Part shown: piece by piece, positions 8,729 through 14,343 of the stretch
Position numbering within the stretch: position 1 is the stretch's first letter
How the letters are laid out: each line of letters opens with the position of its first letter
Source of the DNA: an uncultured Hyphomicrobiales bacterium
GTDB lineage: Bacteria > Pseudomonadota > Alphaproteobacteria > Rhizobiales > TMED25
Direction of reading: 5' to 3'
DNA length: 64,000 nucleotides
Assembly (NCBI GenBank): GCA_905181735.1
Contig: CAJIYR010000001.1
Coordinates: forward strand, 1 to 64,000
Made by a program: the position numbers and the translations under genes
The notes under the pieces: generated by a model
What the model was told of the DNA's origin: nothing
The model's database searches: none
Seen by the model: the letters and a program-made list of their open reading frames with translations, nothing else

Positions 8729-8842
8729 TTTTACTACCTTCTATTAATATAGGTTTCATTTATATGTTGTATATTGATAGATCTAAATTTAATATATGAC
8801 AATACCGAAGATAAAAAAATTATAACTATGGGAATGAGGGAA

Positions 8843-10447
8843 ATGGAAAAGTCAAAGAATTTTGATTTTATTATTGTTGGTGCAGGAAGCGCTGGATGTA
8901 CGCTTGCAGCAAGACTAACTGAGAATAATAAATATAATGTGTGTTTGTTAGAGGCAGGTGGAAGAGACTCAAATCCATGGATACATGTCCCTATTGGATA
9001 TGCAAAGCTATTCACTAATCCTAAAGTTAATTGGATGTACAAAACAAAAGAAGATGATGGTTGGGTTAAAAGAAGTATGGCTGCACCGAGAGGCAAAGTA
9101 CTCGGTGGATCTAGCTCAATCAATGGGATGATCTATATTAGAGGGCAGAAGGAAGATTATAACCACTGGAGACAATTGGGTAACACAGGTTGGAGTTATG
9201 ATGATATCTTACCTTATTTTAAAAAAGCTGAAAAACAAGAAAGAGGTGAGAGCGATTATCACGGTACTGCCGGAGACCTTAATGTTTCTGATCATAAAGA
9301 CAATCATCCTCTTAGCGAAGCATTTCTTAGCGCAGCTGTATCTCAAGGGCACAAGAGAAACGATGATTTTAACGGAGAAGAGCAAGAAGGCTTTGGCCCA
9401 TACCAATGGACTACAGAAAAAGGTAGGCGATGTAGTGCAGCTGTTGCTTATTTAAAAAAAGCAAAACAAAGATCGAATTTAACAATTATATCAAATGCAC
9501 ACGCAACAAAGATTATCTTTGATGGAAAAACAGCAATAGGTGTAGAATATATTAATCGTGGAACAAAGAGTGAGGTCTATGCTAACAAAGAAGTGATATT
9601 ATCGCTTGGAGCTTTTAACTCGCCACAACTATTGCAACTTTCAGGAATTGGCCCTGCTGATTTGTTAAAAAAGCATAGCATTAATATAATCGCAGACTTA
9701 CCTGGTGTTGGATCAAATTTACAAGACCATATTAATGCACCGGTTATTTACAAACTAAACAAACCTTTTACAGTTAATGATGTGTATAATAATTTACACA
9801 GAAGAATTGGTGTTGGAATTGATTATATCTTAAATAGAAAAGGTATGCTGTCAATGGGAGTTGCTTATGTAGGGGGTTTTTTTAAAACAAACGATAAAGT
9901 TGCATCACCAGATATACAAAGCCTTGTATTGATGTTTTCAACTACTGCAATTGGTGGAGCGCCGCATAAATACCCAGGAGTAACAGTAGTATGTACTCTA
10001 TTAAGACCTCAAAGTCGTGGTTATGTTCACATAAAGTCTGCCAACCCATTAGACCCTCCAGAAATTGCTCCTAATTATCTATCGGAAGAAAGTGATAGGC
10101 TAACTCTCCTAGATGCTATTAAAAAAATTCGTCTAGTGTGTGAAGATAAAAACTTTTCAAAGTATGTCGTCGAAGAGAAATATCCAGGTAAAGATATTAA
10201 TACGGATGAATCATTGTTAGAATATTTAAAAACAATGTCTAGAACCAGTTACCATCCTGTTGGTACATGTAAAATGGGTCAAGATGATTTATCTGTAGTA
10301 GACGAAACACTGAAAGTAAAAAATATTCGTGGCTTAAGAGTTGTTGATGCCTCAATAATGCCCACATTAGTATCAGGGAACACGAATGCACCGACGATAA
10401 TGATTGCAGAGAAGGCCTCTGACATGATATTAGATAAATATAAATAA
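8843..10447 (+). CDS. GMC family oxidoreductase (choline dehydrogenase-like)
   Basis: A 534-aa FAD-dependent glucose-methanol-choline oxidoreductase that oxidises an alcohol group. Visible are the dinucleotide motif [11 protein letters not shown] near the N-terminus, GMC signature 1 ([18 protein letters not shown]), signature 2 ([18 protein letters not shown]), and the C-terminal catalytic His in [11 protein letters not shown] (H471), followed by [14 protein letters not shown] placed the start at the ATG at 8843 because the FAD motif should begin a few residues in; the frame stays open to a TTG at 8774, and ATGs at 8828 and 8834 are possible. It is followed after 20 bases by the molybdenum hydroxylase gene. 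Choline is only one of many family substrates. Confidence 0.9.
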
Positions 10448-10467: not shown

Positions 10468-12831
10468 ATGGATGATTTGAACGAATACTCATTTACTAAA
10501 TTTGCGGTAGGACAATCTGTATCGAGATTTGAGGACCCCGTTCTGTTAAAAGGTGAAAGTACTTTTACAGATGATTATAAAAGTGAAGATTTTTATAATA
10601 GTTTTATGTTTAGATCACCATATGCACATGCTAAGATTCTTAATATTGACATTGAAGATGCGAAGAGTTCTGAAGGTGTTATAAGGATACTTACCTATAC
10701 TGACCTTGAGAAAGAAAATGTTGGACCAATTCCATGCGTTACAGCGGATAAATTAAAAAGTAAAGATGGCACACCTATTAATGTTCCACCACTGATGGCG
10801 CTTGCAAAAGAGAAAATTGCTTATGTAGGACAACCAATTGCGTTTGTGATTGCAGATACCATCAATAATGCAAAAAATGCTGCAGAAAAAATCATCTTAG
10901 ATATAGAAGAATTAGATGTGGTGACAGATCCACGTGAAGCTATAAAAGAAAATAATACAACAATCCATCCCGAAGCAAAAAATAATGTTGCAGTTGATTG
11001 GGAATATGGAGATGAAGCTAAAATCGATAAAATTATTGAAAATGCTTACCATAGAACAACATTAGACCTAAGAAACAGTAGGCTTATCGTTGCTCCAATG
11101 GAACCGAGAGCATGCTTTGCGAAGTATGACACCGAAAAAGATGAATACGAGCTTCATGCCCCTTCACAAGGTTTATTTGGCTTCAGTAATATATTAGCGG
11201 GACCTATATTAAACATACCAAAAGAAAAATTACATGTTCTGACTCATAGCGTTGGTGGGTCTTTTGGTATGAAATCCAGCCCTTATCCAGAATATATAGC
11301 CGCTTTAATTGGCTCTAAATTAACTGGAAAGAGTATAAAATGGAAAGACACTCGTACGGATTCCTTTATTTCAGATACCCATGGTAGAGATTCTTGGGCA
11401 ACAGCGACACTAGCCTTTAATGAAAAAAAAGAAATGATTGCCGGAAAAATTAATGTAGTTGCAAACTGTGGAGCATTCTTAGGCTTAATGGGACCAATGG
11501 CGCAATCAGCTAATATTAAAAACAATTTTCCAGGTGCGTATAACTTACCAGAATTATATGTCAATACAGTTGCAGCCTTTACAAACACAACTCCTATCGG
11601 TGCGTACCGTGGAGCAGGAAGACCTGAAGGTGTATATATAATGGAACGCTTGATTCAAAAGGCATCAACAGAAATGAATGTAGATCCAGTTGAATTAAGA
11701 AGAATAAACCTAATTAAAAAAGAAATGTTCCCATACAATGCCGTATCAGGTTTAACCTACGACAGCGGTGATTTCAACAGTGTTCTTGATGATGCCCTTA
11801 AAACATCTGAATGGGATACCTATGATAAAAGAGCTACTGAATCTAAGAAAAACGGATTACTAAGAGGTCGTGCGTTGACTTATTATTTAGAAGTTACAGC
11901 TCCAAGCGCAAAAGAAATGGGACGAGTAAGATTCGACGACAATAACCAAGTCACATTGGTAAGCGGTAATTTAGATTATGGACAAGGTCATTTAACCTCA
12001 TTCGCTCAAATCGTATCCGATAATCTTGGTATTCCTATGGAAAATTTTAAATTAATACAGGGTGATAGCCGAGAATTAACCGCTGGTGCTGGAACAGGTG
12101 GATCTAGAACAGCTATCGGTGGCGGTACTTTATTGTTAAAAGCTAGCAATATTGTCATAGAGAATGGCAAAAAAATTATGGCACATCTGTATAATACTGG
12201 AAGCGATAATGTAGAATTTAACGATGGTGATTTTGAAATACCAGGAACAAATCATAAAATAAGTATTTTAGATTTAAGTAATGAAGTAAAAAAATTATCT
12301 AAAAACAATCAAATACCGGAAGGCCTCCCCCAATCATTAGACGGAGAGTTAGCAGAAGACACACCTCCACAGTCATTTCCAAACGGATGCCATGTATCTG
12401 AAATTGAAATTAACCCAAATACTGGAGTTGTTAAATTAGTTAGACATATTGCGGTTAATGATTTTGGAAATTTAATTAATCCTATGCTTGTTGAAGGCCA
12501 AGTTCTTGGTGGAGTTATCCAAGCTCAAGGACAGATAATGATGGAAAACACTACCTACGATGATTATGGGCAACTATTGTCAGGATCATTTATGGATTAT
12601 ACTATGCCCAGAGCCTCACATATACCCCTTGATTTTAAATTTAAATCACATCCTGTGCCAGCTAAAACTAATCCTCTAGGTTTAAAGGGTTGTGGTGAAG
12701 CTGGAATATCAGGTGCGTTGCCAACAATAATGAATGCTATACTAGATGCACTTGAAAAAAATGGTTATGATACAAATATAAATATGCCAATAACAACCGA
12801 AAAACTATGGTCTGTTATTAATAAAAGTTAA
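10468..12831 (+). CDS. Molybdenum hydroxylase large subunit (xanthine dehydrogenase/CoxL form II type)
   Basis: A 787-aa molybdopterin-binding subunit of the xanthine oxidase family. It opens with GQSVSRFEDPVLLKG, has the active-site loop AYRGAGR at 379-385, typical of form II CoxL-like proteins and not of true form I CO dehydrogenase (AYxCSFR), and the catalytic Glu at E744 (GCGEAG). The family hydroxylates aldehydes, purines or aromatic N-heterocycles. Normally it works with an FAD subunit (CoxM) and a 2Fe-2S subunit (CoxS); neither is in the window. Start has AAAGG upstream. Likely co-transcribed with the GMC gene. Confidence 0.9.
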   Translation: MDDLNEYSFTKFAVGQSVSRFEDPVLLKGESTFTDDYKSEDFYNSFMFRSPYAHAKILNIDIEDAKSSEGVIRILTYTDLEKENVGPIPCVTADKLKSKDGTPINVPPLMALAKEKIAYVGQPIAFVIADTINNAKNAAEKIILDIEELDVVTDPREAIKENNTTIHPEAKNNVAVDWEYGDEAKIDKIIENAYHRTTLDLRNSRLIVAPMEPRACFAKYDTEKDEYELHAPSQGLFGFSNILAGPILNIPKEKLHVLTHSVGGSFGMKSSPYPEYIAALIGSKLTGKSIKWKDTRTDSFISDTHGRDSWATATLAFNEKKEMIAGKINVVANCGAFLGLMGPMAQSANIKNNFPGAYNLPELYVNTVAAFTNTTPIGAYRGAGRPEGVYIMERLIQKASTEMNVDPVELRRINLIKKEMFPYNAVSGLTYDSGDFNSVLDDALKTSEWDTYDKRATESKKNGLLRGRALTYYLEVTAPSAKEMGRVRFDDNNQVTLVSGNLDYGQGHLTSFAQIVSDNLGIPMENFKLIQGDSRELTAGAGTGGSRTAIGGGTLLLKASNIVIENGKKIMAHLYNTGSDNVEFNDGDFEIPGTNHKISILDLSNEVKKLSKNNQIPEGLPQSLDGELAEDTPPQSFPNGCHVSEIEINPNTGVVKLVRHIAVNDFGNLINPMLVEGQVLGGVIQAQGQIMMENTTYDDYGQLLSGSFMDYTMPRASHIPLDFKFKSHPVPAKTNPLGLKGCGEAGISGALPTIMNAILDALEKNGYDTNINMPITTEKLWSVINKS

Positions 12832-12902
12832 TTGTCTAGAATATAAAAATATAAGAAGCTATATAAAAAGATTACTTGTTATATTTTCAATACAAAGGTA
12901 TG

Positions 12903-12908
12903 TATAAT
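12903..12908 (+). promoter_or_regulatory. Candidate -10 box for the microprotein pair
   Basis: A perfect TATAAT lies 36 bases before the first microprotein ATG, in a 112-base gap after the molybdenum hydroxylase gene. No convincing -35 is seen at 17-18 bases, so this is a suggestion from the -10 match and position only; TATAAT is also common by chance in this base composition. Confidence 0.3.
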
Positions 12909-12943
12909 AATAATAACAATAGCCAATTCATTGGAGAAATTAA

Positions 12944-13099
12944 ATGAAACAATCAAGTCAAATTATTTTAATGTGCATTATCATAGGGATTATCGGTGGT
13001 ACTGCGTTTTATATATGGAAAACAACCCCACCTGCAGAACCAATGGATAACTCAGTAGTTGGTTTTACAGCAGAGGATGTTGACTATTATTCACAATAA
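12944..13099 (+). CDS. Single-pass membrane microprotein with C-terminal FTAEDV motif (first of tandem pair)
   Basis: A 51-aa protein, MKQSSQIILMC... to ...YYSQ. A single membrane helix covers about residues 7-25 (rich in Ile and Gly), then WKTTPP, a short polar linker, and the tail FTAEDVDYYSQ. GGAG sits about 8 bases before ATG. It aligns without gaps to the protein at 13136-13360 over 44 residues with 21 identities, including QII, IIGI, IW, PP and all six residues of FTAEDV. Two related proteins in tandem make it very likely to be a real gene. No family recognised; function unknown. Confidence 0.75.
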   Translation: MKQSSQIILMCIIIGIIGGTAFYIWKTTPPAEPMDNSVVGFTAEDVDYYSQ

Positions 13100-13135
13100 T
13101 AAATAAACATTTTTCAAATAAAGATTGGTAAACAT

Positions 13136-13360
13136 ATGACTGATTACAGAAAAAAAGCCAGAGAACATAACGGTGCTCAAATTATTGCAATGTCTGTAAT
13201 CATAGGAATAATGTCAACAGTATCTTTATGGATTTGGTATACAAGCCCACCAAAAGTAGAAGTGTCGAATGAGTATATACCATTTACAGCTGAAGATGTT
13301 GAATACTTTACAGGACGTTTCACTGATAACGGTGATAGCTTGGCTTTAAAATATCAATAA
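13136..13360 (+). CDS. Single-pass membrane microprotein with FTAEDV motif (second of tandem pair)
   Basis: A 74-aa paralogue of the preceding gene, 36 bases downstream. A basic N-terminus (YRKKAREH) and one membrane helix at about residues 15-34 predict N-in, C-out topology. The segment SPP, a linker and FTAEDVEYF follow, with a 15-residue polar extension absent from the first copy. The gene ends before a strong bidirectional hairpin, so the pair is probably one transcript. No known family recognised; a small subunit or assembly factor of a membrane complex is only a guess. Confidence 0.8.
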   Translation: MTDYRKKAREHNGAQIIAMSVIIGIMSTVSLWIWYTSPPKVEVSNEYIPFTAEDVEYFTGRFTDNGDSLALKYQ

Positions 13361-13401
13361 AATACAGTTGATCAACAATTTAAATAATGTACATATATTA
13401 T

Positions 13402-13433
13402 AAAAAGGTCTGTAATTTATTACAGACCTTTTT
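13402..13433. terminator. Bidirectional rho-independent terminator
   Basis: A perfect 14-bp stem (AAAAAGGTCTGTAA at 13402-13415, complement at 13420-13433) with a TTTA loop. The stem's flanking A and T runs give a U-tract in both directions, so it can end the plus-strand microprotein transcript and the minus-strand transporter transcript. Its right edge runs into the stop codon of the minus-strand gene (13432-13434). Confidence 0.9.
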
Positions 13434-14343
13434 ATATATTTAGTATTATTGCATACACACCAATTAAGGATATAAATATTCCTAGTATTGTTTGCAAATT
13501 TATAATTTCATGTTTTCGATTTATGAGCCAACTAAATAATATTCTGAATATCACTGTTGTTCTTTGAATAGGTTCAACTATTGTAATCGGCGCCAATGCC
13601 AAGGCCATATATTTTAAAAGTTGAGATAAAAAAACCAAAAAACCAGTTACCAGAAATAATCGAAAAGAGTTTTTATTCATTTTGTAATTATTAAGCAATG
13701 GCTCCTTTTTTATTAACAATACAATGTAGACAAGTATTGTTGCATTCAAATAAGACACAAAGCATCCAACTATATTTTCTTTTAAGCCACCATCATTAAG
13801 ACCGAGCTTTATAAGAAAGGGGCTTAGGCCAAAGCAAATAGCGCACATTAACCCCCATAGATAACCTTCTTTATACTTAATTTTAATACCAGATTTTGTA
13901 ACGACTGAATCTTTATTAGATGTTCCTATAAGTATCACTAAAGGACCGGCCAAAATTAATAGAATGCCAATTATTAAAGTAATGTTCACAGTTTCTTGTA
14001 AGAAGAAAAAAGCAGAAAACACGGAAATTAACAAACCTAATTGTGTAACAGGCCCAGCCTGTGTAGCGCCCAATGCTTTCGTGGCTTGGTAATTACAATA
14101 TCTTCCGACAACAAAGTGCGTTATACCTGCAAGACCGTAATAAATCCAAGAGGACATAGTTATATCAAGCAAAATATCATAACAATCAAATACCAATAAA
14201 ATTATAAGGAAGAAAGGAACTCCAATTGGAACAGTGATAGCGATTGCTTGAAGAACTGATGCTTTTAAGACACCTCTTCTCAACACCGTTACATTCATGG
14301 CGAAACAAGCCGATGAGAATAATGCTAATAGTGCGCCTAACAT
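13432..14343 (-). CDS. EamA/DMT family transporter
   Basis: A 303-aa drug/metabolite transporter-superfamily permease with about ten hydrophobic helices arranged as two EamA repeats. The second half starts near residue 157 (GYLWGLMCAICFGLSPF). Members export or import amino acids, nucleosides or other small metabolites; substrate unknown. The first residues MLGALLALFSSACFAMN are typical of the first EamA repeat. It is probably the last gene of a minus-strand unit with the DUF2141 gene 13 bases upstream, and ends in the bidirectional terminator. Confidence 0.88.
   Translation of the reverse strand: MLGALLALFSSACFAMNVTVLRRGVLKASVLQAIAITVPIGVPFFLIILLVFDCYDILLDITMSSWIYYGLAGITHFVVGRYCNYQATKALGATQAGPVTQLGLLISVFSAFFFLQETVNITLIIGILLILAGPLVILIGTSNKDSVVTKSGIKIKYKEGYLWGLMCAICFGLSPFLIKLGLNDGGLKENIVGCFVSYLNATILVYIVLLIKKEPLLNNYKMNKNSFRLFLVTGFLVFLSQLLKYMALALAPITIVEPIQRTTVIFRILFSWLINRKHEIINLQTILGIFISLIGVYAIILNI

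Follow-up and report, generated by a model that had tools for sequence, protein, structure and literature searches.

MgrB and AcrZ are examples of small membrane proteins with a regulatory role. Other proteins that have been discussed as small membrane proteins are CydX, CcoQ, CcoS and CcmD (PMC10903887). Our literature searches yielded nothing on a paired one-helix family of the kind described here, whose first two members were noticed as short open reading frames in a 64,000-nucleotide stretch of DNA (hereafter the window) from an uncultured Hyphomicrobiales bacterium (contig CAJIYR010000001.1, positions 1 to 64,000). These frames, ORF1 and ORF2, belong to a real, lineage-restricted family of one-helix microproteins from the OCS116/TMED25 clade, and this family has no name in any of the family libraries that we searched.

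A tandem pair of related microproteins

The original prediction described two tandem frames on the plus strand that encode 51 and 74 amino acids and lie 36 bases apart, and the coordinates prove to be exactly as claimed (Table 1; the gap spans 13100-13135). It also placed the pair downstream of a molybdenum-hydroxylase gene and upstream of a strong terminator, both of which were found. An ungapped alignment of 44 columns with 21 identities had been proposed for the two proteins; BLASTP returns 46 columns, again ungapped and with 21 identities (49.7 bits), and the sequence FTAEDV is common to both. The ungapped score of 119 compares with a mean of 24.4 and a maximum of 56 for segment-preserving shuffles (n=5000). 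Between the two coding copies of FTAEDV[DE]Y there are three synonymous changes and one nonsynonymous change (D/E). Because these differences are mostly synonymous, the match between ORF1 and ORF2 reflects conservation at the protein level rather than a fresh copy of the DNA. A Pfam search with ORF1 and ORF2 matched neither protein to a family.

Table 1. Features of the ORF1-ORF2 locus (positions within the window; a point marks a feature assigned to neither strand).
Feature	Positions	Strand	Basis or remark
GMC oxidoreductase (choline-dehydrogenase-like), syntenic neighbour	8774..10447	+	Pfam GMC_oxred_N/C; NCBIfam NF002550 over cut-off
Molybdenum-hydroxylase large subunit, syntenic neighbour	10468..12831	+	Pfam MoCoBD_1/2, Ald_Xan_dh_C
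Spacer upstream of ORF1, probable own promoter and ribosome-binding site	12832..12943	+	Conserved block in relatives
ORF1, 51-aa one-helix membrane protein, type A member	12944..13099	+	SD-like GGAG at 12933-12936
ORF1 transmembrane helix, residues 6-25	12959..13018	+	Hydrophobic stretch from family-invariant Gln
ORF1 FTAEDV motif, residues 41-46	13064..13081	+	
ORF2, 74-aa paralogue with N- and C-terminal extensions	13136..13360	+	AlphaFold helices 3-36 and 52-63
ORF2 transmembrane helix, residues 15-34	13178..13237	+	Sequence and AlphaFold
ORF2 FTAEDV motif, residues 50-55, start of predicted short helix	13283..13300	+	
Strong intrinsic terminator	13399..13436	.	17 pairs then T-rich tail; 1 found versus 0.2 expected
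EamA-family transporter, convergent neighbour	13432..14343	-	Pfam EamA

A lineage-restricted family, usually in two copies

Within the same GTDB family, a single-sequence search recovered small open reading frames at roughly 30-44% identity, and profile searches (A2, then A4) recovered 22 members from 12 of 14 genomes, with E-values of about 1e-20 to 3e-31. The record titles of these relatives point to the marine OCS116/TMED25 clade of the Hyphomicrobiales. Homologues are thus present in related genomes, as the original prediction of a functional pair leads one to expect. Exactly two copies are found in 10 of the 14 genomes. The other four are incomplete, in many pieces or interrupted at the locus: in one (G001) the hydroxylase contig ends inside the hydroxylase gene, another (G005) is assembled in 120 contigs, and for two (G008 and G013) completeness is 75% and 53%. 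The window's own genome has the tandem pair as its two copies, and no other family member was found there. In the DNA form that was searched, the motif pattern has no match in these genomes other than the family members.

A profile search of 385 genomes from across the class, and of the other genomes of the order that were searched, gave no credible member. The few weak matches outside the GTDB family cover the profile in part, chiefly its helix, and most of them fall in frames that are far longer. When compared with Pfam, NCBIfam, PHROGs and PDB, the family profile produced only weak matches of the kind that any membrane helix gives, and the viral contigs and phage records searched contained no relatives.

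Conserved motif, helix and predicted topology

The family-wide motif is F-[TK]-[AS]-E-D-V-[DE]-[FY]-[WF]. Among 21 aligned sequences, Q15, M19, F50 and D54 (ORF2 numbering) are strictly invariant, and V23 (V or I), M26, E53 and V55 are nearly so. The notion of an invariant FTAEDV tail therefore needs amending, since within the motif only F and D are invariant family-wide, with E and V nearly invariant. The motif is also terminal only in the short members, with ORF2 and relatives of 92 amino acids extending well past it. Likewise, the TxPP turn that had been described is peculiar to the window pair, and relatives carry DHDRKLPKE, NAEKDxPKV and similar sequences. The linker between helix and motif varies in sequence and is nearly constant in length (15-16 residues), and conservation of the helix is one-sided (p = 0.019 for 20 columns of related sequences).

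AlphaFold predicts a single long helix and, apart from it, a short one that begins just after the conserved Phe, with modest confidence at the motif; these single-chain models are of low confidence outside the transmembrane helix (pTM 0.27-0.33). The pattern T/S-x-E-D marks a helix start, and the short helix predicted at the motif is consistent with this. In most members the N-terminus is basic and the segment after the helix is net acidic, which suggests that the N-terminus lies in and the C-terminus out. At 51-92 amino acids and with a single transmembrane helix, the proteins fall within the limits for bitopic small membrane proteins (fewer than about 100 amino acids, one such helix). We would assign the family to this group, which is a structural class rather than a homology family, with a predicted location in the inner membrane. 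No catalytic residues are evident.

Three forms and their gene contexts

Family members take three forms. Type A proteins (51-52 amino acids) carry the motif at the C-terminus, and their genes directly follow the GMC and molybdenum-hydroxylase genes in 11 of the 11 genomes in which this spot can be read, the window included. Type B proteins (65-92 amino acids) continue after the motif with [IT][KR]GGGNILGPP, and have a further tail in six genomes. Their genes occur in different contexts: some follow a two-helix open reading frame of 74 amino acids and precede a DUF4864 gene, some adjoin a DUF4149 gene, and some are near deacetylase-like and glyoxalase genes. Two genomes carry type C (52 amino acids, FTAEDFEYWMQ, apparent start codon TTG), flanked on one side by a PLP-enzyme gene and on the other by a glyoxalase gene. 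Relatives have their second copy at one of several unrelated sites, and only in the window's genome does it stand in tandem with the first.

The two-helix frame found ahead of type B (L078:5776-6000) encodes a membrane protein of no known family, and its stop codon is followed at once by the type B ATG. As a general partner of the family it was considered and rejected, being absent from the tested genomes that carry other family forms.

ORF2 and type B proteins each have both an N-terminal and a C-terminal extension. In the tree, ORF1 groups with ORF2 (93/96) and type B with type C (91/98), and for this reason a local tandem duplication in the window's lineage is favoured over relocation of a type B copy to the position of ORF2. 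This origin is not proven, as a topology that joins ORF2 to B/C is not rejected (p 0.27) and both ORF1 and ORF2 are on long branches.

Synteny around the type A locus spans some 20 genes. In divergent relatives the type A spacer holds a conserved block, TATTTTCTTTATCTTTG...TTTGATATATATA, followed by GGAG, and the block suggests that type A genes have their own promoter; a consensus promoter scan of the window gave nothing above chance. On the other side of the pair, the terminator runs into the final bases of the EamA gene, which converges on the pair, and it is probably used on both strands. Several relatives have a tandem of two EamA transporter genes in place of the window's single one (L043:9836-11670). 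The molybdenum-hydroxylase large subunit is an orphan, with no adjoining 2Fe-2S or FAD subunit gene in the window or in relatives, and an apparently complete three-subunit hydroxylase set is encoded elsewhere in the genome (L114, G000:C1 near 216867).

Selection on the motif

The motif of eight type A orthologues has a pN/pS of 0.056, as compared with 0.30 for the linker and 0.37 for the helix; this set excludes L090 and L092, in which the linker is one residue shorter and the motif is out of register. Comparison of ORF1 with ORF2 gives 0.08 for the motif versus 0.88 and 0.57 for linker and helix, values that rest on few sites. Across six type B genes the motif shows no nonsynonymous change at all; as it also has few synonymous ones, this set is less telling. 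As judged from these ratios, the motif is under strong purifying selection. The depletion of nonsynonymous changes agrees with the original prediction, under which the two kinds of change should not be equally common in the tail. Coding selection of this sort also lends indirect support to the view that the proteins are made. In type B (L078:6136-6279), synonymous differences fall sharply from the motif onward, which may reflect an additional constraint at the DNA or RNA level or a recent common origin of this stretch.

A candidate subunit or adaptor acting in trans

The explanation that we consider best, to which we give about an even chance, is that the proteins are accessory subunits or adaptors of a candidate inner-membrane complex and act in trans. 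It is preferred because it accommodates two paralogues, a constrained helix face, a constrained short extramembrane helix, the lack of evident catalytic residues and the lack of a fixed neighbour for the second copy. In such an arrangement, the N-terminus would lie in the cytoplasm and the C-terminus in the periplasm, and the helix face formed by Gln, Met, Val, Met, Ile and, at the outer edge, Trp would pack against a larger membrane protein. The near-fixed linker of 15-16 residues would then set the short helix F-x-[AS]-E-D-V-[DE]-[FY]-[WF] on the periplasmic side of this partner. The two paralogues would probably pair with each other or else fill two related sites. As for the partner itself, it is probably a membrane protein encoded elsewhere and not one of the neighbouring enzymes, and the several unrelated gene contexts of the second copy point to action in trans. 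Counting against a role as subunits, the two copies per genome could be simple redundancy.

The original prediction had likewise pointed to a membrane complex, in which the proteins would serve as a docking peptide or small subunit. That proposal fits the two-copy pattern, the one-sided helix face and the predicted short helix, whereas the terminal placement, the invariance of FTAEDV and the TxPP turn on which it also drew do not extend to the family. A more specific version holds that the two paralogues work as an obligate heteromeric pair of one-helix subunits that arose in the OCS116/TMED25 clade. The pair would add a lineage-specific module to some core membrane machine of these very small oceanic genomes, be it for respiration, secretion or transport, and would have been re-created or brought together in tandem in the window's lineage. 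We regard this fuller scenario as speculative and rather improbable.

A different role, which we consider unlikely, is that ORF1 and ORF2 are regulators which, like MgrB or AcrZ, bind a target such as a sensor kinase, a transporter or a protease and tune it, with the paralogues answering different conditions. The shared size class and topology are in keeping with this possibility, and separate genomic sites together with a probable own promoter would permit separate regulation. However, no regulator or transporter consistently adjoins both forms and there is no sequence match to those regulator families, although sequence cannot separate such a role from that of a structural subunit.

The consistent position of type A directly after the GMC-hydroxylase pair (11 of 11 readable genomes) raises the possibility that the proteins are membrane anchors or adaptors of one or both enzymes, tethering them to the membrane and the quinone pool. 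An unusual partner is conceivable for a hydroxylase large subunit that has no adjoining Fe-S or FAD subunits. However, synteny takes in the whole region, some 20 genes, so that adjacency does not count as separate evidence, and with the second paralogue located elsewhere the link to the hydroxylase is weak. In addition, separate transcription is suggested by the spacer, which measures about 80-110 bp and carries a conserved block of its own, and neither enzyme has an evident export signal at its start while the motif is predicted to be outside. Other alphaproteobacteria have hydroxylase homologues that are 40-48% identical, and a search next to these found no such small gene. Taken together, these observations make an anchoring role quite doubtful.

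Small membrane toxins of the toxin-antitoxin type, or phage-derived lysis proteins, are highly improbable: the proteins are short and hydrophobic with a single helix and give weak profile matches to spanin and holin helices, but such matches are typical of any membrane helix, a phage holin or spanin was rejected for want of homologues in viral contigs or phage records, and small genomes keep two conserved copies with strong constraint on the extramembrane motif. That ORF1 and ORF2 are chance open reading frames forming no functional pair has a negligible likelihood, since both are indeed short but the protein sequence is conserved while synonymous sites are near saturation across genera, and the selection test refutes it.

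If the proteins are subunits, as we favour, a marine clade that is widespread would have, in one of its membrane complexes, a lineage-specific component that has gone unrecognised. The genomes concerned are small (about 1.3-1.6 Mb), yet they keep these genes of 51-92 amino acids, usually paired and with a strongly constrained motif. The motif and the single helix face offer a clean handle for finding the partner.

Comparison with known small membrane proteins

FixQ/CcoQ (PF05545) was considered for its similar layout of a helix and an acidic tail, and was rejected on sequence, operon and predicted topology. A permissive Pfam scan with FixQ matched none of 21 members, none of the family loci came up when six genomes were searched for FixQ, and the genes are not part of a ccoNOQP operon, their neighbours being the GMC/molybdenum-hydroxylase genes or unrelated genes. 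COX4_pro_2, the bacterial aa3-oxidase subunit IV, is like the present family a small one-helix protein of Alphaproteobacteria. Its model (PF07835) does not match the family, and the true gene scores over the cut-off elsewhere in the genome (G000:C3:155350-155457) and also in relatives.

MgrB and AcrZ resemble the family in size and topology class; the family differs from them in having no sequence match and in possessing two paralogues per genome with a common motif. With regard to the small subunits of oxidases, the family differs in not being encoded with oxidase genes, and its predicted N-in/C-out topology is opposite to that given for CcmD (PMC10903887). The family also shows how readily such small proteins are missed by profile libraries. 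CydX of cytochrome bd, CcoQ/FixQ and CcoS of the cbb3 oxidase, and CcmD share its size class, its single helix and its lack of cofactor residues, and they are often overlooked.
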